This document shows, one piece after another, positions 42,229 to 56,724 of a DNA stretch of 64,000 nucleotides. The stretch is taken from assembly GCA_028284345.1 (NCBI GenBank), contig JANQRY010000006.1, forward strand, positions 124,001-188,000, read 5' to 3'. Position numbers and translations under genes: made by a program. Under the pieces are notes generated by a model. That model did no database searches. It was not told where the DNA came from and worked only from the letters and a program-made list of their open reading frames with translations. How positions within the stretch are numbered: the first letter of the stretch is position 1; each line of letters starts with the position of its first letter. This DNA is from Hyphococcus sp. GTDB taxonomy: Bacteria; Pseudomonadota; Alphaproteobacteria; Caulobacterales; Parvularculaceae.

Positions 42229-43575
42229 TTATCGTTCGGTGAACGCCTGGTCCAGCGACCGCGATACCGGCTTCAGGATATATTGCATCAGGGTGCGCGA
42301 CTGAGTGACGACTTCCGCGCGCACCTGCATGCCGGGCGTCAGTTGACGCGCCCCTTTCCCGCTTCCGATTTGCTGGTCCGGCAGGCTGATATAGGCGACG
42401 TAATAGGCGTCGCCCGTTCGCTCGTCGGTGAAGGTGTCCGCAGACACATGGGCGACTTCGCCTTCCAGCTTGCCGTAGCGATTGGGGTCGAAGGTCGTGA
42501 CGCTGACATCGGTTTTCATGCCGATTGTGACGTGGCCGATATCTTTCGGATTGACGCGCACCTCCGCCATCAACTCCGCGCCTATGGGCGTGATCTCGGC
42601 GACGACGCTGCCCGGGGCGACCACGTCGCCTTGTCCGTCGACGGCGAGGTCGTTAACGACGCCGGCGACCGGCGCGCGCACGGTGAGGCGATCCGACCGG
42701 TCCTTGAGCGAGGCGATCGGTTCTTCGAGTTCCGCAAGTTGCGCGACGACGGCCGCGCGTTCCTCGGCGATGGTCGATTGATACTCCGCCGCCGCGCCTT
42801 CGCGGTCGGCGCGGGCAGCCGTATGGGCGCGGCGCGCCTGATCGAGACGGGAGCGCGCGCCCGCGGCTTTCGCTTTCGCTGAGGCCACCGCCGCCTTCGC
42901 CTGAAGATAGGACTGCTTGGACGTAAAGCCTTCGCCGATCAGTTCTTCCTGTATCTCCAACTGCTGTTCGGCAAAGTCCAGAAGATCGGTTTCCGCTTTC
43001 AGTTCCGCTTCGGTTTTCACGACCTCCGATTTCGCCGAGGCCTCCCGCTCGGTAAAGGTCTCCATGACCGCGCGCTGTTGTTTTACGCTGGAGGCGTGCA
43101 CCGTGATCTGTTCGGCGACCATGGTCGGCCAGTCGTCGATGAATTTTTTGAAATCCGGGTCGCGTTCGCCCGCCTGCGCCGCCAGCCGCTCCAGCCGCAA
43201 TTCGAGATCGGCGCGGCGCGCTTCGAAACGGTCGAACTCGCCGCCGGCGTTTTCCGTGCGGAGGCGCACGAGGGGCTGGCCTTCGGCAACGACCTCGCCG
43301 GGGGCGACCAGCACTTCGTCGACAATGCCGCCCTCAAGATGGGCGGCCTCGCGCGTTGATCCGAACGGCGCAATTTCGCCCATGGCGACGGAAAGCTCCC
43401 GCACATGGGCGATGTTTGCCCAGACGAGGAGAACGATCACCAGACCGCTGATGATCGCCATTGCGGCGCGCGAAAGAAACGGCGGCGCGCCTTCCTCAAG
43501 CTCTATGGGCAGGGCGAGGCCGTGGCGTTCGCCGACATTTTCGTGTTTTCGCTCTGTGTTTGACGCCGTGTTCAT
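42229..43575 (-). CDS. HlyD-family membrane fusion protein of type I secretion system
   Basis: This 448-residue periplasmic adaptor links the ABC exporter to the TolC-like channel. It has a cytoplasmic N-terminus (about 1-35), one transmembrane helix (about 36-56, AAMAIISGLVIVLLVWANI), the lipoyl half EGGIVDEVLVAPGEVVAEGQPL and a long alpha-helical hairpin rich in Ala/Glu/Arg (about 120-290). A second lipoyl half (VRAPVAGVVNDLAVDGQGDVV) and a beta-barrel follow. The start overlaps the stop of the 744-residue ABC gene as ATGA. It is the last gene of the ABC-ABC-HlyD operon. Confidence 0.93.
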   Translation of the reverse strand: MNTASNTERKHENVGERHGLALPIELEEGAPPFLSRAAMAIISGLVIVLLVWANIAHVRELSVAMGEIAPFGSTREAAHLEGGIVDEVLVAPGEVVAEGQPLVRLRTENAGGEFDRFEARRADLELRLERLAAQAGERDPDFKKFIDDWPTMVAEQITVHASSVKQQRAVMETFTEREASAKSEVVKTEAELKAETDLLDFAEQQLEIQEELIGEGFTSKQSYLQAKAAVASAKAKAAGARSRLDQARRAHTAARADREGAAAEYQSTIAEERAAVVAQLAELEEPIASLKDRSDRLTVRAPVAGVVNDLAVDGQGDVVAPGSVVAEITPIGAELMAEVRVNPKDIGHVTIGMKTDVSVTTFDPNRYGKLEGEVAHVSADTFTDERTGDAYYVAYISLPDQQIGSGKGARQLTPGMQVRAEVVTQSRTLMQYILKPVSRSLDQAFTER

Positions 43576-45806
43576 GCTCGTTCCGCCTTCAACTCGGTAT
43601 CCATAATTTGCGGCACCACCTGATCCGATGGGCCGATGTCGCGCACGGCGCCGCGATCAAGCCAGACCACGCGGTCGGCAAGGCGCATATGGCTCGGGCG
43701 CTGCGTCGTCATAATGATGGCGCTGTTGCGCCGCTTTTCCTCAAGGATGGAGATCAACGCTCTTTCCCCCGAAAAATCGAGCGATGCGGCTGGCTCGTCG
43801 AGAAGATAGAGCGGCGCGTCCTTGATAAAGGCGCGGGCGAGGATGATCCGGCTTTTGAGCGCGTCCGACCATGTGGCGCGCGCCATGACGGTGCATTTCG
43901 TGTCGAGACCTTCGTCAAGCGCGCCGCCGAAATAATCGTCGATGCCGAGCTTGCGAATGACCGCGTCGATTTCCTTGTCCGTCGCGTCGGGGCGCGCCAG
44001 CCGGATATTCTGCGCCACCGTGCCGTGGAAGAGATCCGGCGACTGCAGGCCGACGCCGAGGGCGTGGCGCCATTCGCCCTTGTCGAGCTGACGCAGGTCG
44101 AGACCGTCGATAAAGATGGACCCCGCCTGCTGCTGATAAAGGCCCATCAACAGGCGCAACGCCGTTGACGCGCCGGCGCCGCTTTGACCGTAGAGACAGA
44201 CGAGTTCGCCGGGTTTGACCTCAAAGGAAACGCCGCGCAGGGACGGCTCGCGTGCGCCGGGATAACGGAACGAGATTTTGTCGAATACGACATGGCCCTT
44301 GAACGTCCGCGGGATGGACGGCCCGGCGTTCGGTTCCCGCTCCAGCGGCATTTTCACGAGCCGGTCGATCTGTTGCAGGCTTTGCAGAGTCTGTCCGAGG
44401 GTCAGGCCGCTGAGAAAGATGTTGCGGATCGGGCCGAGCACGCGCCAGGAAAGGGCCATGACTGCAATCAGCGCGCCTGCGCTGAGGTCGCCGGCAATGA
44501 CCATGCCGGTGCCGAGGGTTAAGATGGCGATTCCGGCGATGGCGACCATCGATTGCGAAAACGTCTGGAGCAGAAAGTTGAGCTCGCGCGCCTTCTTGTT
44601 GGCCATGGCGGCGTCGGCCGACATTCGCCGCTGGCGCCGCAACCAGATATGCTCCGCCGCAAGGTCGCGGATCGCGCGTTGCGACGATACCGCCTCGACC
44701 GTCAGGTTATTCAGTTGCGCGCGCGCATTGCCGGCCTTGCGCACAAGCGCTGCGGTGCGCGGCAACGCCCAGGCAGCCATCACCGCGTAGACGCCCACCA
44801 GCGCAATCGGCGCCCAGACAAGGGGGCCGCCGATAAACGCAATGACGACGATGAAAAGCAAGAGGAACGGCAGGTCGAACAGGGCGTTCGCCAGCGGGCC
44901 GGTGAACGCCTCGTGCAACGAGGTCATCTGCTTCAGGCGCGTCAACTGCGATCCGATCGGCGCGTCTTCCGTATGTGACAACGATAAGTGCGTGAGGTGG
45001 CGAAACGCGGTTTCGTTCAATTGTTCGTCGAGGCGCGCGCCGAGATAGGATTGCAGCCGCACGCGCACCTGACGCATGGCGAAGTCCGCCGCGGCAATAA
45101 TGATGACGCCAATAGACAGGCCGATCAGCACGTCGATGGATTTTGCGCCGACGGCTTTGTCGTATACCGTCATCACATAGAGCGGCGGCGCCAGCGCAAA
45201 GAGGTTTACGACAAAGCTGATCAGAAAGATCTGCCGGATGACGGGGCTGAACGCGGCGAACATGGTCGCTGACCAGGCTGGTGCCGCGGCGCCATGCTGG
45301 TCGTGTTTTTCCACGGCTTCGGGGAAGATGCACAAGCCCTCGATCTCGTCGGCGGCGAGTCTTTGTGGTTCGTCGCGCGCCGGGTCGAACAGGACGACGG
45401 TGTTGTCGTCGTCGATTTTTTCCGCCAGCACGACGCAGCCGTCCTCCCGGCGCACAAAGCACGGCAGAAATTCGTCGCGAAGTTTTTCCGGCGTCGCCGG
45501 CTCTGCGGTCGTGTTGTAGCCAAGCCGAAACAGGACGGAACGAAAGGCCGCAACGGACGCCATCGTATCCGCATGGGGCATGGCTTCGAAGATGCGGCGC
45601 GGGCCTTGCGCCCAGCCGGTGAGTTTCAAAAACCGGTCGATCACGACGATGCAGTCGTCGTTGAGCGTCTGTTGCATCGCCGGCGGCGCGGTAAAGGCGG
45701 CGCGCAGGCGCTGCTGCATCGCCTGCACTGGATTTTCGCCGTCTTGCGCGTCGATCCCCAGCCGTTCGAAAAACCAATCGTCGTTGCGTTTGAGCAGGTT
45801 CATCAT
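43572..45806 (-). CDS. type I secretion ABC subunit with C39-like N-terminal domain and degenerate ATPase
   Basis: This 744-residue protein has an N-terminal C39-peptidase-like domain (about 1-165) lacking an evident catalytic Cys, as in LapB/HlyB types, then six transmembrane helices (about 180-475) and an ABC ATPase domain (about 510-744). The ATPase is abnormal. Walker A reads GQSGAGAST with A546 in place of Lys, the LSGGQ signature is replaced by TWSDALK, and the switch His is Q702 (TTQRPSH). Walker B YLLDEP and D-loop SLD are intact. It overlaps the adjoining ABC gene by four bases, so a heterodimer with that subunit is likely. Confidence 0.9.
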   Translation of the reverse strand: MMNLLKRNDDWFFERLGIDAQDGENPVQAMQQRLRAAFTAPPAMQQTLNDDCIVVIDRFLKLTGWAQGPRRIFEAMPHADTMASVAAFRSVLFRLGYNTTAEPATPEKLRDEFLPCFVRREDGCVVLAEKIDDDNTVVLFDPARDEPQRLAADEIEGLCIFPEAVEKHDQHGAAAPAWSATMFAAFSPVIRQIFLISFVVNLFALAPPLYVMTVYDKAVGAKSIDVLIGLSIGVIIIAAADFAMRQVRVRLQSYLGARLDEQLNETAFRHLTHLSLSHTEDAPIGSQLTRLKQMTSLHEAFTGPLANALFDLPFLLLFIVVIAFIGGPLVWAPIALVGVYAVMAAWALPRTAALVRKAGNARAQLNNLTVEAVSSQRAIRDLAAEHIWLRRQRRMSADAAMANKKARELNFLLQTFSQSMVAIAGIAILTLGTGMVIAGDLSAGALIAVMALSWRVLGPIRNIFLSGLTLGQTLQSLQQIDRLVKMPLEREPNAGPSIPRTFKGHVVFDKISFRYPGAREPSLRGVSFEVKPGELVCLYGQSGAGASTALRLLMGLYQQQAGSIFIDGLDLRQLDKGEWRHALGVGLQSPDLFHGTVAQNIRLARPDATDKEIDAVIRKLGIDDYFGGALDEGLDTKCTVMARATWSDALKSRIILARAFIKDAPLYLLDEPAASLDFSGERALISILEEKRRNSAIIMTTQRPSHMRLADRVVWLDRGAVRDIGPSDQVVPQIMDTELKAERA

Positions 45807-47509
45807 GACGCAACCGCCTTTGCATCAATAACGTCGCGCTCGATGCGTTTCAGTTCGCGATCGGTGATTTCATAGGCCTCGTCGGCCATATTGATCAGCG
45901 AAGGCCGGTGCGTCGCGAGGACAATGGTGATTTTTCCGCGCAGATGTCGCAGCGCCTCAACGAAGCGCTGCTCGCCGGCGAGGTCGAGATGGGTGTTCGC
46001 CTCATCGAGAATAATAACGGAGGGTATGGTCGCAAGCGCGCGCGCAATGGTCAGGCGCTGCGCCGTGGGCGCCGGTATGTCGCGCCCGGCGGAGCTTTTC
46101 AGCATGGTGTCGTAGCCAAGCGGCATCCGCACCACTTCATCGTCGAGACCGACAATGCGCGAGGCCGCCAGCGCCGCTTTTGTCGACACTTCGCCGAACA
46201 GCGTCAGGTTTTCGAGGATCGTGCCGCGAAAAATCGTGGGCGTCTGATCCACATAACGAACTGCGCCGCGCACATTTGCGGCGTTCGCTGCGTCGCCGAT
46301 AAGCACGCTGCCCTTTGCGACGGGCGTATCGTCCATCAAAAGGCGGAGCAGGGAAGACCGTCCGGACCCGTCTGCGCCCTTGATCGCCACCAGCGCGCCG
46401 GCCGCGACGTCGAGATTAAGGTTTTCGAACAGCGGCGGCGCGTCCCCATACTGAACGGTGACGTTTTTGATGACGATTTTCTGTGGCCGGAACCGTTGTT
46501 GATATTCAACGGGCGCGTCGCTCTCGTCGCTGGCGTCCTCGAAGATTTTGGAGACGCGCGTTCGGCGATGCTTGGCCAACTGGATTTCGTTCCAGCTGGC
46601 AAGCGAGCGCATCAGCGGCTGCAGCAACTGCGAGGACAGCAACATGCAGCAGGCAAGGGCGCCGAGGGTCAGTCGTCCATTCAATACGAGGATGGCGCCG
46701 ACGCCGACGATGGCGATAATCGACAGCGCCGCATACATGGCGCTGTAGGTCTGCGCCTCGCCCGTGAGCTTGATGATGCGTTGCGTGATCATGCTGGCGG
46801 ACGATTGCAGGCGCTCGAAACGGCGCATCATCAATGGCTCCATGGCCGTTGATTTCACCGTCTGCATGGTTCTCAGCACTTCAATAAGGAAGTCGTGTTT
46901 GCGCGCTTCATGGGTTTCCTGTTCGGCGATGGCGGCGTTGAGCGATTGCGTGCGGCGCAAAGCGAGATAGCCGAACACCCCGAACAGCGCGAGGACGACA
47001 AAAAAGATCGGCCCGCCGACGAACACGATTACGGCGGCGAAGATGGGGATGAAGAGAATGTCGACGGCGACGAGGCGCGACTGCCCGCCGAGATGCCCGC
47101 CAAGGCCGGTCACGGCCGTCAGTCTTTCAAGATGTTCGCTGGCCATGGTGCGGCTGTATTGCGACGGGCGCGTCGCCAGCATGGTCGACAGCGCTTTCAT
47201 CGACAGCGTGTGCGTAAAAGAAGCCGCCGACCAGTTAACGAGCGACGCGCGAAGATATTTGAGGACGGCGTCAACGGCGACAACGCCCATCAGCAGCGCA
47301 ACGAGCGCCGTCAGCGTGTCAAACGACGCATTCGGCAACACCCGATCGTAAATCTGAAGGATCGTGAAGGGCAGCGCCAGGGCGAGGACGTTAACGATAG
47401 CGGAGGCGACATAGGTGGTCGCGCTCAAGGGCGGCTCCGACAGAGCCGTATTGTCTGACGCCTGATTCCGCATCAGCTCGGCGATTGTATCCAGCGCATC
47501 CTGCAGCAT
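45803..47509 (-). CDS. type I secretion ABC subunit, PrtD-like, with degenerate ATPase
   Basis: This 568-residue half-transporter lacks a peptidase-like domain. Its six-helix membrane region spans about 30-310 and its ABC ATPase about 350-555. Walker A reads GADGSGRSS with R384 in place of Lys, and the signature LSGGQ is replaced by PAPTAQ. Walker B IILDEA and the switch His in ATHRPS are intact. It is the first gene of the exporter operon, divergent from the giant adhesin gene with 182 AT-rich bases between them that should hold both promoters. Confidence 0.9.
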   Translation of the reverse strand: MLQDALDTIAELMRNQASDNTALSEPPLSATTYVASAIVNVLALALPFTILQIYDRVLPNASFDTLTALVALLMGVVAVDAVLKYLRASLVNWSAASFTHTLSMKALSTMLATRPSQYSRTMASEHLERLTAVTGLGGHLGGQSRLVAVDILFIPIFAAVIVFVGGPIFFVVLALFGVFGYLALRRTQSLNAAIAEQETHEARKHDFLIEVLRTMQTVKSTAMEPLMMRRFERLQSSASMITQRIIKLTGEAQTYSAMYAALSIIAIVGVGAILVLNGRLTLGALACCMLLSSQLLQPLMRSLASWNEIQLAKHRRTRVSKIFEDASDESDAPVEYQQRFRPQKIVIKNVTVQYGDAPPLFENLNLDVAAGALVAIKGADGSGRSSLLRLLMDDTPVAKGSVLIGDAANAANVRGAVRYVDQTPTIFRGTILENLTLFGEVSTKAALAASRIVGLDDEVVRMPLGYDTMLKSSAGRDIPAPTAQRLTIARALATIPSVIILDEANTHLDLAGEQRFVEALRHLRGKITIVLATHRPSLINMADEAYEITDRELKRIERDVIDAKAVAS

Positions 47510-47691: not shown

Positions 47692-50600
47692 ATGGCGGAA
47701 AATCGAGAGAAAACGCCTGTTAACGGAAAAGACCCCGCGGCGGGCGACGAGGCCGTTTCAAAACCTTCCGTGGAAGATTTAAGTCTCGAAAGCGAACGCG
47801 AGGCGTTGAAAAAGGCCCAGGACGCCGAGACCGCGGCCGCGACGTCCGGCGACGGATCGAGCGCCCATGGAAACCTGCATTTTGGCGATCAGGAACGCGG
47901 CGACATCAAAACCGTCGGCGACGACGCCGACGAGCGCGACGGCGATCCGGCGTTTGCCGATGGCGACAGTGACGATGACGGGCGCGATGCGCAGGCCGGC
48001 GCCGATGACGACGCCGACCGCGGTAACGAACCCTTAACCAATGAAACGTCCGGCGGCGCAGCGGGCGAGCCCGCCGGCGGGCCGGGTGCTTCGGCGGAGG
48101 CGGGCGCCGTGCTCGCGCGCAACGCCCGCCAACCGGCGCCGGAATCGAACAGCGGCGAAGCGGCGCCGACGACGACCGCGAAATCCGCCGGCGACCGCCC
48201 TGAGGACGCTGATCCCGACGACGACAGAACGCCGGTCAACGAAGCCCCGACCGACATTGCGTTGTCTGATGACGTTGTTGCGGAAAACGACGCCGGCGCG
48301 CTGATCGCGACGCTGGTCGCGTCCGACCCGGATGCGGACGACACGGCGACATATTCAATCGTCGAGGATCCGTCCGGTCTTTTCGAGGTGGTTGGCGACG
48401 AATTGCGACTGCGGGACGGCGTCTCGCTCGATCACGAGGCGCAGGATTCCTACGAGATCACGCTGCAGGTCGAAGACAGCGCGGGCAACGTTTACACGGA
48501 AACGGTGACGATCAACGTCGCCGACATCAATGAAGGCCCGACCGGTCTCATCCTTTCGGGCGATAGCGTCAATGAGAACGACGCCGGCGCGACGGTCGCG
48601 ATCCTGTCCGCGACGGACGAAGATGAAGGCGACATAGCGACATTTTCCATCGCGGAGGACCCTTCAGGTCTGTTTGTAATCGTCGGCGACGAATTGCGGC
48701 TCAAAGACGGCGTCTCCCTCGATCATGAAGCGCAGGACGCCTATCAAATCACCATTGAGGTCGAAGACGGCGCCGGGAATGTCTATTCCGAGACCGTGAC
48801 GATCAATGTGGCGGACCTCAACGAGGGTCCGACCGATCTTCAGCTTTCGAATACGAGCGTCGACGAAAACGGCGCCGGCGCCGTGGTCGGCACGTTGTCG
48901 GCGTTTGATCCCGATGACGGCGACGCGCTTGTTTATACGGTGTCGGACGATCGTTTCGAAATTGTCGGCGATCAGTTGCGGATCAAGGAAGGCGTTTCCT
49001 TCGACCACGAAACCATCGACTCCATTGATGTCACGGTGACGGCGACTGATCAGGGCGGTCTCACCACGTCGCAGTCATTCACGATCGACGTCAACGATCT
49101 CAATGAGCGCCCGACGGACATTGCGCTCTCCGGCGATACGGTGGATGAAAACGACGCCGGCGCGACGGTGGCGATCCTGTCCGCGACGGACGAGGATGAA
49201 GGCGACATTGCGACGTTTTCTATCGCGGAAGACCCGTCCGGCCTCTTTGAAATCGTCGGCGACGAGCTGCGCCTCAAAGACGGCGTCTCCCTCGATCACG
49301 AGGCGCAGGACGCCTATCAGATCACCATCGAGGTCGAGGATTCCGGCGGCGCGACCTATTTGGAAACGGTGACGATCAACGTCGCTGATCTCAATGAAGG
49401 CCCGACCGATATTCAACTCTCCGGCGCCAGCGTCGACGAACATGACGCCGGCGCGGTTGTCGGCACGCTGACGGCGTTCGACCCGGATGAAGGCGATACG
49501 CTGACGTTCACGGTCTCGGACGACCGCTTTGAAGTGGTCGGAGACGAGTTGAAGCTCAAGGACGGCGTCGAACTCGACTTCAATGAAATTGAATTGATCG
49601 ACGTCACCGTGACGGCGACGGATTCCCACGGGGAGTCGACGTCCCAGTCATTCTCCATCGACGTCAATGACGTTAATGAGGCCCCGACGGACATCTCTCT
49701 CGACAACGATACGGTCGCTGAAAATGACGCCGGCGCAACCGTCGCGTGGCTCGCGGCCGCTGACCCGGACGCGGGCGACACGGCGACGTTCTCCATTGCC
49801 GAAGACGCCTCCGGTCTGTTCGAGGTGGTCGGCAATGAGTTGAAACTGAAAGACGGCGCATCCCTCGATCGCGAGGCGCAGGACGCCTACGAGATTACGC
49901 TTGAAGTCACCGACAGCGGCGGCGCCAACTATACCGAGACGGTGACGATCAACGTCGCCGACCTCAATGAAAGTCCGACAGATCTTCAGCTTTCCGGCGA
50001 TACGGTGAACGAAAATGAAGCGGGCGCCGTTGTGGGCGAGGTCTCGGCCTACGATCCCGACGACGGCGACAGCCTCGATTTCACCGTCTCCGACGACCGG
50101 TTCGAGATCGTCGACGGCCAGCTCAAGCTCAAAGACGGCGTTTCCCTTGACCATGAAGCGGCCGAGACGATTGACGTCACGGTCACGGCGACGGACCAGG
50201 GCGGTCTCGAAACCTCTCAATCATTCACCATCAACGTCGCCGACGTTAACGAGGCGCCGAGCGATATCACGCTTTCCGGCGGGACGGTTCGCGAAAACAG
50301 TTTCGAAGGAACCTATGTCGGCACGGTGTCGGCGAGCGATCCTGACGACGGCGAGACCTTTACTTTCGCTCTCGCCGATGATGCGGACGGGCGTTTCGCC
50401 GTCGATCCGGATACGGGACGCATCACCGTTGCGGACCGCATCGATCAAAGCATACTCCTCGACTTTGAAGAGAATCCCACGCACGACATCGTCGTCGTGG
50501 TCACGGACAGCGCCGGCAACGCCTATCAGGAAACCGTCACCATCAATGTCGCCGACCTGCAGAACGAATACATCATTGGCGACAACGCCGATAATGTTCT

Positions 50601-53600
50601 GACCGGCGCTGGCGGCAATGACGTTATCTACGACTATTTCGGCGGCGACGACGTCCTCGACGGCGGCGACGGCAATGATGTCCTGGTCGACATTGCTGGC
50701 GGCGAGGATGAGCTCTATGGCGGCGCCGGCGACGACATCCTGCTCGGCGGCGCCGGGGCCGACGTCATTGACGGCGGCGACGGGACCGACACGGCCTATT
50801 ATTCGAATTCAGCGTCCGGCGTTTCGGTCGACCTTGAGAGCGGCGGCGTCAATGGAAGCGGCGGGGACGCCGAAGGCGACGAGATCGTCAATGTCGAAAA
50901 CGTCTTTGGCTCAGCGCGCGACGATACGATCATCGGCGACGACGCTGATAACACGCTTACCGGCTACTATGGCGACGACGTGTTGCAGGGCGGCGGCGGC
51001 GACGACACAATCGACGGCGATTATGGCCGCTGGGGATCGGCGGGCGACGACACGGCGGTCTACAGCGGCGCCTGGTCCGATTACACGATCACCGAAGAGA
51101 ACGGCGTCTTCACTATCACAGACAATCGTCCTGACTCCCCGGATGGAACCGACACCGTCTCAAACGTTGAGAACTTTCAATTCGCCGACGGCGTTGTAAC
51201 AGCGGATAACCTCCTCAACGTCGGTCCAAGCGATTTGTGGGCGGAAGACGCGACCGTCGCGGAAAATAGTGCGGCGGGAACTGTCGCCGCAACCCTGGCG
51301 GTTTCTGACGACAATGCGCTGGACGCCCACGAATTCGCCATTACCGATGATCCGTCCGGTTTCTTTGAGATTGTCGGCAATGAGGTTCGCGTCAGGGAAG
51401 GCGCCGATCTCGATTACGAATCGCAGGATTCCTACGATATCACGGTGGAAGTCACCGATAGCGCCGGCGCCAGCTATACCGAGACGGTGACCATCAACGT
51501 CGCCGACGTCAACGAAGCGCCGGTCGACTTTGTTCTTACGCCGACGTCGGAATCCGGCACGCTGTCGCTCAATCAGGACGGCGGCAATGACGACGCGGCG
51601 ATCGCCGCCAATATGGAAGGCTTCCCGACGACCGCATTGACGGTCGAGGTGACGTTCACGTCGTCGCAGACCGATGTGGGCTCCGGCGTGCCGCTGTTCT
51701 CCTATGCGGCCGATAGCGGTTCCAACAACGAGGCGCTGATCTGGCTCGAAAGCGGGTCCGGCAACGTCCAGATTTATCTCGCCGGTCAGCGGATCAACAC
51801 CGGCTTCTCAAACGCCGACCTCCTCGACGGCGAGGAGCATCAGGTCTCGTTCACCTGGGATCAGGCGTCGAACGAGCTGAAATTTTATGTGGACGGCGAA
51901 GAGGAATTCGCCACCAGCATCAACATTCGCGATCTCCGGGCCGACGGCACCGTTGCGTTCGGTCAGGAACAGGACGCCGAGGGCGGCGGCTTCGATACGA
52001 ACCAGATCTTTGAAGGGGAAATCGCCGAAGCGCGCATCTTTAACTACGCCCGTTCGGGCGAGGAGATCGCCGACAACGCCGGCGCGCCGCTCGACGATCC
52101 CGCGAGCGAGCCGGGTCTTGTCTCGAACTGGCTGATGAACACGAATGACGGCGGCTTTGTGCGCGACGCGGCCGGCGACAACGATCTTCAACTCGTCAAT
52201 GACGCGAGCATTGAGGGCGGCGAGGCCTATGACGAGCCGACCGTCATTGAAAACGAGACCGGCGCCGTCGTCGGAACCCTTTCCGCCACCGATCCCGACA
52301 GCGGCGAGCCGGTTACGAATTTCGCCATCGCCGACGATCCCTCCGGCCTGTTCGAGGTCGTCGGCGACGAGCTGAAACTCAAAGACGGCGTCTCGCTCGA
52401 TCACGAGGCGCAGGACTCCTACGAGATCACCGTTGAGGCGATCGACGACGCCGGCTTGGCGACGCAACAGATCGTCACCATTAACGTCGCCGATGTGGGC
52501 GAGGCGCCGATCAACGTCTCCTTTGACCCGGCCGCCGACAGTCCCGTCCTTTCGCTGAACGAGGACGGCGGCAACAATGACTACGCCATCGCCTCCAATA
52601 TCGAAGGCTTCCCGACCGACGCGCTGACGGTCGAGGTTTCGTTCGTGTCGTCGCAGACCGATGTGGGCAACGGCGTTCCGTTGTTCTCCTATGCGGCCAA
52701 TGACGGCTCGAACAACGAGGCCCTGATCTGGCTCGAAAGCGGGTCCGGTAACGTACAGATTTATCTCGCCGGTCAGCGGATCGACACCGGCTTTTCAAAC
52801 GCCGACCTGCTCGATGGCGAACCCCATCAGGTCGCTTTCTCCTGGGATCAGTCCACGAACGAACTCAAGTTCTATGTCGACGGAGAGCCGGCGTTCGAAA
52901 CAACTGTCAACATTCGCGACCTGCGCGCGGACGGCACGCTTGTTCTTGGACAGGAGCAGGACACGGAAGGCGGCGCCTTCGATACGAACCAGATCTTTGA
53001 AGGTCAGATCTCGGAAGTGCGCATCTTCGACTACGCCCGCAGCGATCAGGAAATCGCCGACAACGCCGACGCGCCGTTTGACGATCCTGAAACCGAGCCC
53101 GGCCTCGTCAACAACTGGGTCATGAACGGGGAAGAGGGCGGCTTTATCGAAGATCTCGTCGGCGCCAACCATATGGAACTGCGCGGCGACGCCGGCATTA
53201 TCGACGGCGATTTCGGCTCGACGCCGACGGTCGTTGAAAACGAGACGGGCGCCATTGTCGGCACGATTTCGGCCACCGACCCGCAGACCGGCGGACCGGT
53301 GACGAATTTTGTCATCGCCGACGATCCGTCCGGCCTGTTCGAACTGGTCGGCGACCAGCTGAAACTTAAAGACGGCGTATCGCTAGATTTCGAAACGGCC
53401 GAAACCCACGACGTCGCGATCGAAGCCATCGGGTCGGGCGGCGAATCCACCGTGCATGTGGTGACGATCAATGTCGCCGATGTTGATGAAACGAACCTGA
53501 TCCTCGGCACGGAACGAGCCGACCGGCTCAACGGAACCGATGACGCCGACGAAATTCATGGCCTTGGCGGCAATGACCAGATCAATGGCCTTGGCGGCGA

Positions 53601-55086
53601 CGATATCGTCCTTGGCGGCGCGGGCCGGGACAATGTTCGCGGCGGCGACGGCGACGATGTGGTTGAGGGCGGCGACGGCAATGATACGATCCGCGGCGAT
53701 GCGGGCGCCGACGAATTACGCGGCGGCGCCGGCAACGACCTGATCTTCGCCGACGGCGACGACACGGTCGTCGAGGGCGGCGAAGGCACTGACCGCGTGA
53801 TCGTTCAGGGCGACGGCGACTTCTCCATCGACATGACGGCCGGCGGCGTTGAGCGCGTCGACGGCGGCGCCGGCAACGACGTTATGGACGCCACTGGCAT
53901 GTCGGATCGCGCGCGGCAATATGGCAATGCCGGCGACGACACGCTCATTGGCGGCGACAACCGCGATGATCAGCGCGGCGGCGCCGGGAATGACATTATC
54001 GACGGCGGCGCAGGCAATGATACGATCCGCGGCGACGCGGGCGCCGACCAATTGCGCGGCGGCGCGGGCAACGACCTGATCTTCGCCGACAGCGACGATA
54101 CGGTCGTCGAGGGCGGCGAAGGCTATGACCGCGTCATCGTGCAGGGCGACGGCGACTTTTCCATCGACATGACGGCCGGCGGCGTTGAGCGCGTTGACGG
54201 CGGCGCTGGAAACGACACGATGGATGCCACGGGCATGTCGGATCGTGTGCGCCAGTACGGCAATGATGGCGACGATACGCTCATCGGCGGCGACAACAAT
54301 GATGATCAGCGCGGCGGCGCCGGCAACGATGTTATCGACGGCGGCGCGGGGAATGACTACATCCGCGGCGATGCGGGCGCCGACCAATTGCGCGGCGGCG
54401 CCGGCAATGACCGGATTTACGCTGACAGTGACGACACGGTCGTTGAGGGCGGCGAGGGTAATGACCGCGTTATCGTTCAGGGCGACGGCGATTTCTCCAT
54501 CGACATGACCGCAGCGGGCGTTGAGCGCGTCGACGGCGGGGCTGGAAACGACGTCATGGACGCCACCGGCATGACGGATCGCGCCCGGCAATATGGCAAT
54601 GCCGGCGACGACACCCTTATCGGCGGCGAGGGCCGCGACGTGCAGCTGGGCGGTGACGGCGAGGATATCATTTTCGGCGGCGGCGAACGGGACTTCATCC
54701 GCGGCGGCGACGGCAATGACGCGCTTTCCGGCGGCGAGGGCGCAGACAGGATTTATGGCGACGCCGGCGATGACACGATCACCGGCGGGACAGGCAATGA
54801 CCGGCTTGAAGGCGGCGACGGTTCGGATGTGTTCGTCTACGAACTGGGCGACGGGTCCGATCGCATCAGCGGCGGCGCCGGTGACTGGACCGATACCATC
54901 CAGCTCAACGCCGAAGACGGCTCCCTCGGCGAGTTCGGCGTCGACTGGACCATCGAACTCACCGAAGGGTCGATTGTCTCCGCCGACGAGGACGGGATTG
55001 TCTTTACCGACGATGCGGACGGCGTCATCACGCTCAATGACGGATCGACTATCACCTTCACCGATATTGAAGAAGTGCTAATTTAG
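47692..55086 (+). CDS. giant calcium-binding adhesin: cadherin-like, LamG-like and RTX repeats
   Basis: This 2,464-residue surface or secreted protein has no Sec signal. Residues 1-185 are acidic, Ala/Gly/Asp-rich and probably disordered. Eight cadherin-like repeats of about 97 residues follow (186-950; PTDI.LS, V.EN.AGA, SLDHEAQD.Y.IT). RTX block 1 spans 958-1176 and a ninth cadherin-like repeat 1179-1276. LamG-like domain 1 (1279-1513), a tenth repeat, LamG-like domain 2 (1608-1842) and an eleventh repeat come next. RTX block 2 covers about 1938-2383, and the acidic, Ile/Thr-rich C-terminus (2384-2464) fits a type I secretion signal. The exporter genes on both sides imply type I export. A LapG-type TAAG retention site was not found. 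Confidence 0.93.
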   Translation: MAENREKTPVNGKDPAAGDEAVSKPSVEDLSLESEREALKKAQDAETAAATSGDGSSAHGNLHFGDQERGDIKTVGDDADERDGDPAFADGDSDDDGRDAQAGADDDADRGNEPLTNETSGGAAGEPAGGPGASAEAGAVLARNARQPAPESNSGEAAPTTTAKSAGDRPEDADPDDDRTPVNEAPTDIALSDDVVAENDAGALIATLVASDPDADDTATYSIVEDPSGLFEVVGDELRLRDGVSLDHEAQDSYEITLQVEDSAGNVYTETVTINVADINEGPTGLILSGDSVNENDAGATVAILSATDEDEGDIATFSIAEDPSGLFVIVGDELRLKDGVSLDHEAQDAYQITIEVEDGAGNVYSETVTINVADLNEGPTDLQLSNTSVDENGAGAVVGTLSAFDPDDGDALVYTVSDDRFEIVGDQLRIKEGVSFDHETIDSIDVTVTATDQGGLTTSQSFTIDVNDLNERPTDIALSGDTVDENDAGATVAILSATDEDEGDIATFSIAEDPSGLFEIVGDELRLKDGVSLDHEAQDAYQITIEVEDSGGATYLETVTINVADLNEGPTDIQLSGASVDEHDAGAVVGTLTAFDPDEGDTLTFTVSDDRFEVVGDELKLKDGVELDFNEIELIDVTVTATDSHGESTSQSFSIDVNDVNEAPTDISLDNDTVAENDAGATVAWLAAADPDAGDTATFSIAEDASGLFEVVGNELKLKDGASLDREAQDAYEITLEVTDSGGANYTETVTINVADLNESPTDLQLSGDTVNENEAGAVVGEVSAYDPDDGDSLDFTVSDDRFEIVDGQLKLKDGVSLDHEAAETIDVTVTATDQGGLETSQSFTINVADVNEAPSDITLSGGTVRENSFEGTYVGTVSASDPDDGETFTFALADDADGRFAVDPDTGRITVADRIDQSILLDFEENPTHDIVVVVTDSAGNAYQETVTINVADLQNEYIIGDNADNVLTGAGGNDVIYDYFGGDDVLDGGDGNDVLVDIAGGEDELYGGAGDDILLGGAGADVIDGGDGTDTAYYSNSASGVSVDLESGGVNGSGGDAEGDEIVNVENVFGSARDDTIIGDDADNTLTGYYGDDVLQGGGGDDTIDGDYGRWGSAGDDTAVYSGAWSDYTITEENGVFTITDNRPDSPDGTDTVSNVENFQFADGVVTADNLLNVGPSDLWAEDATVAENSAAGTVAATLAVSDDNALDAHEFAITDDPSGFFEIVGNEVRVREGADLDYESQDSYDITVEVTDSAGASYTETVTINVADVNEAPVDFVLTPTSESGTLSLNQDGGNDDAAIAANMEGFPTTALTVEVTFTSSQTDVGSGVPLFSYAADSGSNNEALIWLESGSGNVQIYLAGQRINTGFSNADLLDGEEHQVSFTWDQASNELKFYVDGEEEFATSINIRDLRADGTVAFGQEQDAEGGGFDTNQIFEGEIAEARIFNYARSGEEIADNAGAPLDDPASEPGLVSNWLMNTNDGGFVRDAAGDNDLQLVNDASIEGGEAYDEPTVIENETGAVVGTLSATDPDSGEPVTNFAIADDPSGLFEVVGDELKLKDGVSLDHEAQDSYEITVEAIDDAGLATQQIVTINVADVGEAPINVSFDPAADSPVLSLNEDGGNNDYAIASNIEGFPTDALTVEVSFVSSQTDVGNGVPLFSYAANDGSNNEALIWLESGSGNVQIYLAGQRIDTGFSNADLLDGEPHQVAFSWDQSTNELKFYVDGEPAFETTVNIRDLRADGTLVLGQEQDTEGGAFDTNQIFEGQISEVRIFDYARSDQEIADNADAPFDDPETEPGLVNNWVMNGEEGGFIEDLVGANHMELRGDAGIIDGDFGSTPTVVENETGAIVGTISATDPQTGGPVTNFVIADDPSGLFELVGDQLKLKDGVSLDFETAETHDVAIEAIGSGGESTVHVVTINVADVDETNLILGTERADRLNGTDDADEIHGLGGNDQINGLGGDDIVLGGAGRDNVRGGDGDDVVEGGDGNDTIRGDAGADELRGGAGNDLIFADGDDTVVEGGEGTDRVIVQGDGDFSIDMTAGGVERVDGGAGNDVMDATGMSDRARQYGNAGDDTLIGGDNRDDQRGGAGNDIIDGGAGNDTIRGDAGADQLRGGAGNDLIFADSDDTVVEGGEGYDRVIVQGDGDFSIDMTAGGVERVDGGAGNDTMDATGMSDRVRQYGNDGDDTLIGGDNNDDQRGGAGNDVIDGGAGNDYIRGDAGADQLRGGAGNDRIYADSDDTVVEGGEGNDRVIVQGDGDFSIDMTAAGVERVDGGAGNDVMDATGMTDRARQYGNAGDDTLIGGEGRDVQLGGDGEDIIFGGGERDFIRGGDGNDALSGGEGADRIYGDAGDDTITGGTGNDRLEGGDGSDVFVYELGDGSDRISGGAGDWTDTIQLNAEDGSLGEFGVDWTIELTEGSIVSADEDGIVFTDDADGVITLNDGSTITFTDIEEVLI
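51526..53490 (+). repeat. tandem duplication of LamG-like plus cadherin-like unit, 987 bp
   Basis: Matching landmarks (for example TCGTCGCAGACCGATGTGGG at 51661 and 52648) are 987 bases or 329 codons apart. The two units carry the same order: a LamG-like domain followed by a shortened cadherin-like repeat beginning PTVIEN or PTVVEN. Protein similarity is high throughout, indicating a duplication inside the adhesin gene. Confidence 0.9.
53681..54688 (+). repeat. three tandem 336-bp RTX super-repeats
   Basis: The landmark GCGGGCGCCGAC occurs at 53701, 54037 and 54373, exactly 336 bases (112 codons) apart. Each unit has RTX nonapeptides, a VVEGGEG.DRVIVQGDGDFS strand and the segment GGAGNDVMDATGM.DR.RQYGN. 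The third unit is truncated at its end. High nucleotide identity points to recent expansion. Confidence 0.9.
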
Positions 55087-55284: not shown

Positions 55285-56724
55285 CTATTCGCCCTCAATG
55301 CCGAACGCTTCCAAAATCGACCCGGTAGCGGCGGCGAGTTCGTACTGACTGACGCGCACGTCGAACTCCGCTTCGGACAGGCCGATCTGCGCCTGTACAA
55401 GATCGCGCTGGCCGTCGAGGACGTCGATGACCGTGCGCTGGCCCGCTTCATATTCAAGCTGCAATCCCTTTACCGATTGCTCCGCCGCTTCGATGCCTTG
55501 CCTGGCGGCGACGCGCCGGATTTCCGCTTCCGTCAGCTGCCGCCAACTGCGCATCACGATTTCATCGACGGCGAGACGGGTGCTGTCGAGTTCCGCGCGC
55601 GCCTGTCTTTCCGACGCGCGCGCGCTTCTGAGATCGGCGATGTTTCGGCCCTGATTGAAAATCGGCATGCGCAACCGCGCGACGAGCTGATATTCCTCGT
55701 CTTCCTGCATCAATGTCGGGTCGGCGCCGAAGCGCTTGAAGTAGCTTCCCTCAAGCGTGACCTTGGGCGCGAAATCGCCAAGGGCCGCGCCTTTGGAAAA
55801 TTTCGCGGCCTTAAAGCCCGCTTCCGAGGCGTTGACGGCGGGATTGTATTCCCGCGCCAGATCGATCGAGCCGTCGAGGGTCTCAGGCGTCCGGTCGCGA
55901 TCATCATCATCGGCGACAAACTGCGCCGGCGTCTCACGGCCGGTAATGCGTTGATAGGCGGCTTCGCTCTGGGCGAGCGCGGCCCGCGCCGCGCCGAGGT
56001 CAACCTGCGCCTGCGCGCGGCGAACCCGCGCTTGCTCGACGCCGGTGCGCCCTTGCGCGCCGGCTTCCGCGCGCTTGCTGACAATTTCAAACTGGCGGTT
56101 GAGGAGCGCCAGATTGCTGATCCGGTGTTCGACAATTTCGCGCGCCAGCACGACGGCGGCATGCGCTTGCGCGGCGTTGAACGCCACTTGCTGACGCACG
56201 GACAGGAACGACAGGTCCGCCTGGCTCGCCCGCGCGCGCGCGCTGCGATACCGGTTGAAGGTGGTCAGCCCTTGAGACAGCGGCTGCACCGCCGTCACGC
56301 CGAAGGTCGTGCCGTCGCGATCCTGAAGGGTCTGCAGCGACTCGCTGCGCCAGCTTTCGTCGGAATAGGCGGCCGTCACCTGAACGTCGGGGAGAAACTG
56401 ACCGAGCGCCGCAAACCGGTCGGCCTTTGCTGCATCGAGGCGGGATTTTGAAATCTCGATCTGCGGATTGTTGGCGAGCGCCGTCTTGATGGCGTCGACC
56501 ACGGTTTCGCCGTCGGTGCGCGTCGATGCGTCCTCATCGGTCGCCGCGCCGTCGGGGACGGCGATCGGCTCCGGCAGATGCTCGTTCAGATCTTCAACCG
56601 GGTAGACGCTGCCCGGATAAGGAACGGCGCTGTCGTCCTGCGCCCAAACGGCGCTCGCCGCGCCGGCGACCGCTGTGACGACCAGCATTTCTAAAGACCT
56701 TAAGCGCACTTTTAAAAACCACAT
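55285..56724 (-). CDS. TolC-family outer-membrane channel of type I secretion
   Basis: This 479-residue protein has a signal peptide (MWFLKVRLRSLEMLVV...ASAVWA, cleavage near 28) followed by a variable acidic stretch. Two outer-membrane efflux-protein repeats cover about 70-260 and 280-470, with the coiled-coil patterns NPQIEISKSRLDAAKADRFAALGQFLPD and YNPAVNASEAGFKAAKFSKG. It is the expected third component for the ABC-HlyD exporter and lies on the far side of the adhesin gene. ATG 56724 lacks a Shine-Dalgarno site; ATG 56688 has AAGG upstream but would lose the basic n-region. Confidence 0.93.
   Translation of the reverse strand: MWFLKVRLRSLEMLVVTAVAGAASAVWAQDDSAVPYPGSVYPVEDLNEHLPEPIAVPDGAATDEDASTRTDGETVVDAIKTALANNPQIEISKSRLDAAKADRFAALGQFLPDVQVTAAYSDESWRSESLQTLQDRDGTTFGVTAVQPLSQGLTTFNRYRSARARASQADLSFLSVRQQVAFNAAQAHAAVVLAREIVEHRISNLALLNRQFEIVSKRAEAGAQGRTGVEQARVRRAQAQVDLGAARAALAQSEAAYQRITGRETPAQFVADDDDRDRTPETLDGSIDLAREYNPAVNASEAGFKAAKFSKGAALGDFAPKVTLEGSYFKRFGADPTLMQEDEEYQLVARLRMPIFNQGRNIADLRSARASERQARAELDSTRLAVDEIVMRSWRQLTEAEIRRVAARQGIEAAEQSVKGLQLEYEAGQRTVIDVLDGQRDLVQAQIGLSEAEFDVRVSQYELAAATGSILEAFGIEGE

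Follow-up and report, generated by a model that had tools for sequence, protein, structure and literature searches.

How can a protein exporter of the ATP-binding cassette (ABC) type be powered when neither of its two ATP sites is canonical? The question is raised by two adjacent genes in Hyphococcus sp. (assembly GCA_028284345.1), on a 64,000-nucleotide stretch of contig JANQRY010000006.1 (positions 124,001 to 188,000) that we refer to as the window. The genes encode the two ABC subunits of a predicted type I secretion system, A (744 residues; 43572–45806, minus strand) and B (568 residues; 45803–47509, minus strand), and in both the lysine of the Walker A motif is replaced. The usual account of ABC transporters with a degenerate site is that labor is divided between it and a canonical partner site; the present pair is maintained although it lacks any canonical site. 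Judged from sequence comparison, the double lysine loss is an old, selectively maintained, derived state of one clade. Because the loss is maintained and is not decay, the source of the pump's power can be put to the test.

ATP-site motifs and their history

The nucleotide-binding domains (NBDs) of an ABC dimer are arranged head to tail, and each ATP site is made up of the Walker motifs of one subunit and the signature of the other. We call the site formed by the Walker motifs of A and the signature of B site 1, and the site formed by the Walker motifs of B and the signature of A site 2. In A, Walker A reads GQSGAGAST (44163–44189), with A546 replacing the lysine; WSDAL stands at the signature position in place of LSGGQ (43857–43871), and Gln replaces the switch histidine (Q702 in TTQRPS; 43701–43703). 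In B, Walker A reads GADGSGRSS (46352–46378), with R384 replacing the lysine; the signature position has IPAPT (46064–46078), and the switch histidine is kept (H534 in ATHRPS; 45908–45910). All of these positions are on the minus strand, and Walker B is retained in both subunits (LLDE in A and ILDE in B). A preliminary description of the window had read A546, R384, Q702, the kept Walker B DE, and the kept histidine of B correctly. It was also right that LSGGQ is gone from both subunits, with WSDAL and IPAPT being the in-register readings, and that neither composite site of the pair is canonical. Both sites are indeed altered, but unequally: Arg, the Walker B Asp, Glu/Asp, and the His persist at site 2, while site 1 has lost its Lys and His.

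The family search covered 62 Parvularculaceae genomes, 28 in the window's (Marinicaulis-like) genus and 34 outside it, and the genus yielded 26 pairs in 24 genomes because G026 and G039 each hold two. Walker A was readable in 25 of the 26 genus copies of A. The lysine is kept in 11 and replaced in 14, by Thr in seven, Ala in four, Val in two, and Ser in one. Thirteen of the 14 lysine-less copies have the Walker B glutamate (G037 has Ala), and all 14 have Gln at the switch position; lysine-bearing copies have Asp (six) or Asn (four) in place of this glutamate (10 read) and His at the switch position (10/10 read). For B, Walker A has Arg in 25 of 26 pairs, the sole exception being Lys in G024 (one tally of B motifs, with the split B of G022 set aside, gives 24/25). 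Of the two substitutes singled out in the preliminary description, the Arg of B is thus conserved, but the Ala of A is not. LSGGQ was found in none of the 24 readable A or 25 readable B sequences of the genus. Instead, the A signature has Trp first and Leu last in 24/24 copies read, and in B, all 25 copies read have Pro at the second signature position and His at the switch position. Both lysines are missing from 13 of 24 pairs, or from 14 of 25 if G022 is counted (Thr in A, Arg in B). Among the residues read, each of the two sites departs from the canonical pattern at one or more positions in all 26 genus pairs, leaving no canonical composite site; in G024, Lys, Glu, and His are all present in B, but the facing signature is WPEAL.

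These motif counts are counts of sequences and not of independent events. On trees built from both subunits after exclusion of the motif columns (LG+G4, no mixture model), the loss of the A lysine is a single change, with either 42 or 35 rows. The lysine-less A sequences form one clade, which also takes in the truncated copy of G041, with a Shimodaira–Hasegawa-like approximate likelihood ratio test (SH-aLRT) support of 99 in the 42-row tree and bootstrap/SH-aLRT support of 100/99 in the 35-row tree; the long branches L070 and L072 meet in the latter, away from this clade. The replaced residues follow the gene tree. Because the lysine was lost in a single change, the coupled loss of Lys and His amounts to one history and not to replicated evidence. 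The tree places two loci from another family of the order, L158 and L159 (genomes G217 and G113), within the genus, beside G031 with L052; lateral transfer or old paralogy is a possible explanation for their placement.

Relatives from outside the genus came from a profile scan of named genomes, in which the best 80 of 579 relatives were used, and from order and class searches (30 of 299 and 42 of 385 genomes matched at thresholds, respectively), from which 35 further loci were drawn. The resulting 115 loci comprise 83 adjacent B–A pairs, six fused B–A proteins, and 26 loci scored as single. Three of the singles have non-LSGGQ signatures (L081, a B-like fragment at a contig edge, and L202 and L218, which lie within open frames of more than 1000 residues) and were left out of both groups as possible truncated pairs or fusions. 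The remaining 23 single-gene relatives all have LSGGQ, Lys, and Glu, with His in 22 and Gln in one. After 10 loci repeating the genus were dropped, 79 pairs or fusions were left, a few of them sharing a genome or coming from close relatives. None of the 78 readable A or 78 readable B sequences in this set has LSGGQ, and so the missing signature noted in the preliminary description is real but not peculiar to the window pair; it is a trait of the B+A family. The lysine is kept in 78 of 79 A and in 58 of the 78 B read; Lys, Glu, and His occur together in 55/79 A and 26/79 B; and in 20 pairs neither half is complete for these three residues. From these counts, altered signatures mark the pair family, and A is the better conserved half outside the genus. 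Absence of both lysines was found in none of the 78 outside pairs read. The statement that both lysines are lost therefore holds for the window's clade, where it is derived, and not beyond it: the A lysine is intact in 11/25 within the genus and 78/79 outside, and within this sample the motif readings make the double loss special to that clade. Among the outside pairs, L091 has Ala for Lys in A (GHNGCGAST) with the His kept and a lysine-bearing B, and in L076, L077, L109, L161, and L164 the B P-loops are strongly altered (e.g., PVDGGGVRE and GRDGARLSA) beside a lysine-bearing A. The six B–A fusions (L067, L100, L104, L106, L108, and L223, from Rhodobiaceae, Sulfuricella, Magnetococcales, and other records) support an obligate heterodimer.

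Selection was assessed as the ratio of nonsynonymous to synonymous divergence (dN/dS; NG86 method) for 13 sequence pairs, with the transmembrane domain (TMD) and NBD taken apart for both A and B. Of the 52 comparisons, 36 gave finite values, 15 had saturated dS, and one hit a truncated gene. The finite ratios range from 0.026 to 0.167, all far below 1, although the values are rough and most comparisons have a high synonymous divergence. For example, the window compared with G038 gives 0.081 for the A TMD, 0.064 for the A NBD, 0.086 for the B TMD, and 0.095 for the B NBD. In A, the NBD ratio exceeds that of the TMD in two of the nine comparisons where both are finite. The view in the preliminary description that the genes are not decaying is borne out by these ratios, by the intact overlapping frames, and by replacements that follow the tree. 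Frameshifts in close relatives, which would have spoken for decay, amount to one, in the B of G022; the other frames of the genus are intact. Strain-specific decay is rejected in view of the presence of lysine-less A in 14 genomes, its restriction to one clade, and the low dN/dS.

How the pair may be powered

The two sites differ in what the lysine-less pairs have retained. At site 2, Arg is present in 14/14, the Walker B Asp in 13/13, Glu or Asp at the catalytic position in 13/13 (10 Glu, three Asp), and the switch His in 13/13, and the facing A signature has its Trp and Leu in 14/14. Site 1 keeps the Walker B Asp and the P-loop Thr in 14/14 but has Lys and His in 0/14. Motif identities, given here as plain mean pairwise values without a significance test, are lower in lysine-less than in lysine-bearing pairs for the two components of site 1 (0.74 vs. 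0.87 for the A Walker A and 0.54 vs. 0.77 for the B signature), while the whole A NBD stands at 0.70 vs. 0.65 and the B Walker A, at 0.84 vs. 0.78, is not looser. The B switch His is found in 25/25 copies within the genus and in 36 of the 78 read outside it, which speaks for importance having moved from site 1 to site 2.

We consider it about an even chance that the pair is a one-site exporter, in which the nucleotide switch that remains is site 2, with its Arg P-loop, while site 1 serves as a structural interface. Under this proposal, A and B would act together as an obligate heterodimer, an ABC transporter exporting the neighboring RTX/cadherin protein through HlyD and TolC. Motif counts show the pair to descend from a B+A family with mostly normal Walker motifs, non-LSGGQ signatures, and A as the better conserved half. 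Going by the order of changes on the tree, this lineage would then have exchanged the B Lys for Arg and the catalytic Glu of A for Asp, Asn, or Ser, after which A of the window's clade would have lost its Lys and switch His, with most copies having Glu again. Site 1 (the A P-loop with the B signature) may now be empty or a structural interface. Site 2, with the Arg P-loop, Walker B Asp, Glu/Asp, and His of B and the W-P/S-D-x-L signature of A, would be the last nucleotide site, where ATP could be bound and slowly turned over, or where switching could rely chiefly on binding. Net movement might be helped by the Ca2+-driven folding of RTX repeats outside the cell, where the substrate has many.

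Several observations weigh against this proposal. Export of the adhesin is deduced from gene order, and in G037 the neighboring protein has one RTX stretch only. At the degenerate site of ABCG5/G8, Lys is likewise exchanged for Arg and the signature is altered (PMC7756269), and thus the Arg alone predicts little hydrolysis. Site 2 is itself not uniformly preserved in lysine-less pairs: the A signature is looser (0.77 vs. 0.89), the A-loop residue of B is Tyr in only 6/14, and the Q-loop Gln of B is retained in 8/13. The B NBD has a higher dN/dS than the B TMD in six of the eight comparisons where both are finite, and hence it is somewhat less constrained. At site 1, the A-loop Tyr of A is retained in 13/14 copies despite the lost lysine, and an empty interface does not account for the Walker B Glu present in 13 of the 14.

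Some of these points favor an export conduit that works without hydrolysis, which we regard as unlikely but the most probable of the alternatives to the one-site exporter. ATP would be turned over at neither site, the NBDs would serve as a constitutive or binding-gated scaffold, and translocation would draw on the membrane potential and on the substrate folding once outside the cell. No lysine-less pair has all canonical residues at either site, both signatures are replaced, and the A-loop and Q-loop residues of site 2 are partly lost; moreover, G037 lacks another dedicated type I engine, and Ca2+-triggered extracellular folding of GG repeats is described in PMC8277102. However, every lysine-less pair read keeps the Walker B Asp, the D-loop Asp, and the B P-loop glycines, as well as the Arg, Glu/Asp, and His of B, and the A NBD is as constrained as the A TMD. 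In its broader form, an ABC exporter moving a giant protein without hydrolysis, with the NBD dimer as a structural or binding-only gate, seems to us rather unlikely; both P-loop lysines and both signatures would then have been lost stepwise under purifying selection.

The energy could also come from elsewhere. The lysine-less heterodimer might be the channel in a larger inner-membrane assembly in which the dimers of another, canonical ABC protein hydrolyze ATP. A precedent is the HlyB/HlyD complex, described in PMC9751043 (citing Zhao 2022) as a trimer of HlyB dimers, all hydrolyzing and one transporting. A candidate engine exists in the window's own genome, where one PrtD exceeds the TIGR01842 cut-off and has GPSAAGKSS, LSAGQ, DEP, and SHRPS; however, this PrtD has an HlyD of its own beside it. 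The concern in the preliminary description, that a separate canonical exporter secretes the adhesin, is consequently answered by G037 only. This genome, given as 100% complete with 0% contamination, carries a lysine-less pair (with Ala for the Glu of A), a 3186-residue neighbor, and a TolC. Searched with TIGR01842 at E 1e-60, it returned A, B, and one generic exporter (220 bits), with no other PrtD-like protein over or near the cut-off, and TIGR01843 at E 1e-30 found a single HlyD, that of the pair. Its PF00664 proteins number four: A, B, and two others that keep the lysine and have LSGGQ or LSGGE. Those two best match MsbA, at 518.3 and 370.5 bits (below the cut-off of 602), and fall far below the cut-offs of the type I secretion models; they are remote candidates for an engine. 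A complete lysine-less relative thus has no dedicated separate exporter, and we give a mixed assembly only a small chance.

We give a similarly small chance to a lysine-independent ATPase, in which other residues stand in for the lysines and both sites hydrolyze. In its favor, lysine-less A sequences have Glu and the A-loop Tyr in 13/14 each and the Walker B Asp and P-loop Thr in 14/14 each, but the residue replacing the lysine varies among Thr, Ala, Val, and Ser, the A His is gone from all 14, and the facing B signature is loose (0.54). Decay or an annotation or assembly artefact, to which the frameshift-split B of G022 might point, is highly improbable given lysine-less A in 14 genomes, finite dN/dS of at most 0.167, overlapping intact genes, and long open neighbors.

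Among close relatives, lysine-bearing pairs, found even as paralogs in the same genome, represent intermediate states and make up a natural series. With this series, one can examine which residues of the catalytic machinery are indispensable to a type I exporter, and whether a giant adhesin can be secreted by ATP binding at a single altered site or even without any hydrolysis.

The locus and its distribution

The genes around the pair are those of a type I secretion system. A and B overlap by 4 bases, and A overlaps in the same way with the downstream gene for an HlyD-type periplasmic adaptor (42229–43575, minus strand; TIGR01843, 316.1 bits vs. a cut-off of 208.65). Divergent from B lies the gene for a 2464-residue, RTX/cadherin/laminin-G adhesin-like protein that is the putative substrate (47692–55086, plus strand), followed by one for a TolC-family outer-membrane protein (55285–56724, minus strand; TIGR01844, 241.4 bits vs. 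225.15). The adhesin combines cadherin repeats, RTX repeats, and two laminin-G/pentaxin stretches; in Pfam terms, it has seven stretches of PF00028, 11 of PF00353, two of PF13385, and two of PF00354. A exceeds the gathering scores of both ABC_membrane (PF00664, 88 bits) and ABC_tran (PF00005, 84.6 bits), as does B (68.7 and 57.1 bits), which identifies each as a type I ABC exporter subunit. With a linked HlyD, TolC, and RTX-protein gene, the window holds the elements of type I secretion, and from gene order we infer that A and B export the neighboring RTX/cadherin protein. B is a half-size exporter made of a TMD and an NBD with no extra N-terminal domain. In A, these are preceded by an N-terminal domain where a C39-like domain would sit; Pfam C39 had no match in A at E 0.001. 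AlphaFold2 models of the single chains are of moderate quality (mean predicted local distance difference test scores of 73.0 for A and 74.3 for B), and the geometry of the composite sites was consequently not derived from them. Fold searches with these models placed HlyB (7sgr/8dck) as the top Protein Data Bank match, with PCAT1 and PrtD (5l22) also in the lists. As model-based evidence, the searches confirm the exporter fold only.

Orthologs of A with at least 48% identity occur in 24 of the 28 genus genomes, the ones without being G025, G036, G043, and G045; among the matches listed for the 34 family genomes outside the genus, none exceeds 32% identity to A. Gene order is constant, with B directly upstream of A in 26/26 places and HlyD adjoining A in 23, the contig ending earlier in G022, G034, and G041. 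In the 23 places that yielded B, A, and HlyD together, no further gene separates them, and an extra gene among them was for this reason rejected as an energy source. Reading frames are intact in the genus, except for the frameshift-split B of G022 (L032:2317-4240), which is on a metagenome-assembled contig and is possibly an assembly error; A is cut by contig ends in G034 and G041. G026 (L041, L054) and G039 (L043, L055) each carry a lysine-less and a lysine-bearing pair as paralogs.

A divergent open frame, measured from stop to stop and not from a start codon, begins 49–164 bases from B in 22 of the 26 places; eight of these frames are complete (1075–3190 residues), whereas the other 14 run off the fetched stretch. 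The exceptions are G040, with TolC in that position; G021, where a large frame starts at +1333; the second pair of G026, with a 436-residue frame at +141 before a large one at +1659; and the first pair of G039, where the contig edge falls. TolC was found inside the fetched stretch in 7/26 places. Domain scans of the adhesin-like neighbor cover the window and G037, whose divergent 3186-residue protein (L035:5659-15216) has cadherin, PA14, pentaxin, and one RTX stretch, with TolC also adjoining the pair. A LapG-type protease was considered for adhesin release and set aside, as PF06035 had no match in G000 or G037.

Comparison with known systems

By profile, the nearest known system is the LssB type (TIGR03375), the best NCBIfam match of both subunits, and the HlyD adjoining A and the RTX protein next door fit this likeness. 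However, A (460.7 bits) and B (295.9 bits) fall far under the cut-off of 693.1, and where the single-gene relatives have LSGGQ and Lys (23/23), the locus described here has a B+A pair without LSGGQ. The exporters HlyB and PrtD are homodimers. The three-part architecture with HlyD and TolC is shared with HlyB and PrtD systems, and HlyB structures are the top fold matches, but the window encodes a pair, and the PrtD of the same genome keeps Lys, LSAGQ, DEP, and His.

In its asymmetric sites and two different subunits (encoded here by adjacent or fused genes), the pair resembles TM287/288, TmrAB, TAP, ABCG5/G8, and Pdr5. TmrAB, from Thermus, is presented in PMC8277102 as a heterodimeric type I secretion system with one degenerate site, and heterodimeric type I secretion as such is therefore not new. 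No description of a type I secretion heterodimer in which both sites are degenerate was found among the titles and abstract openings covered by the open-literature search. Two cases of degeneration are given in PMC7756269: in ABCG5/G8, Lys is replaced by Arg and the signature is altered, while in site 1 of Pdr5, Lys is replaced by Cys, Glu by Asn, and His by Tyr, and in each the partner site is canonical. In these descriptions, a degenerate site is combined with a canonical one, whereas the pair described here lacks a canonical site altogether, along with both P-loop lysines.

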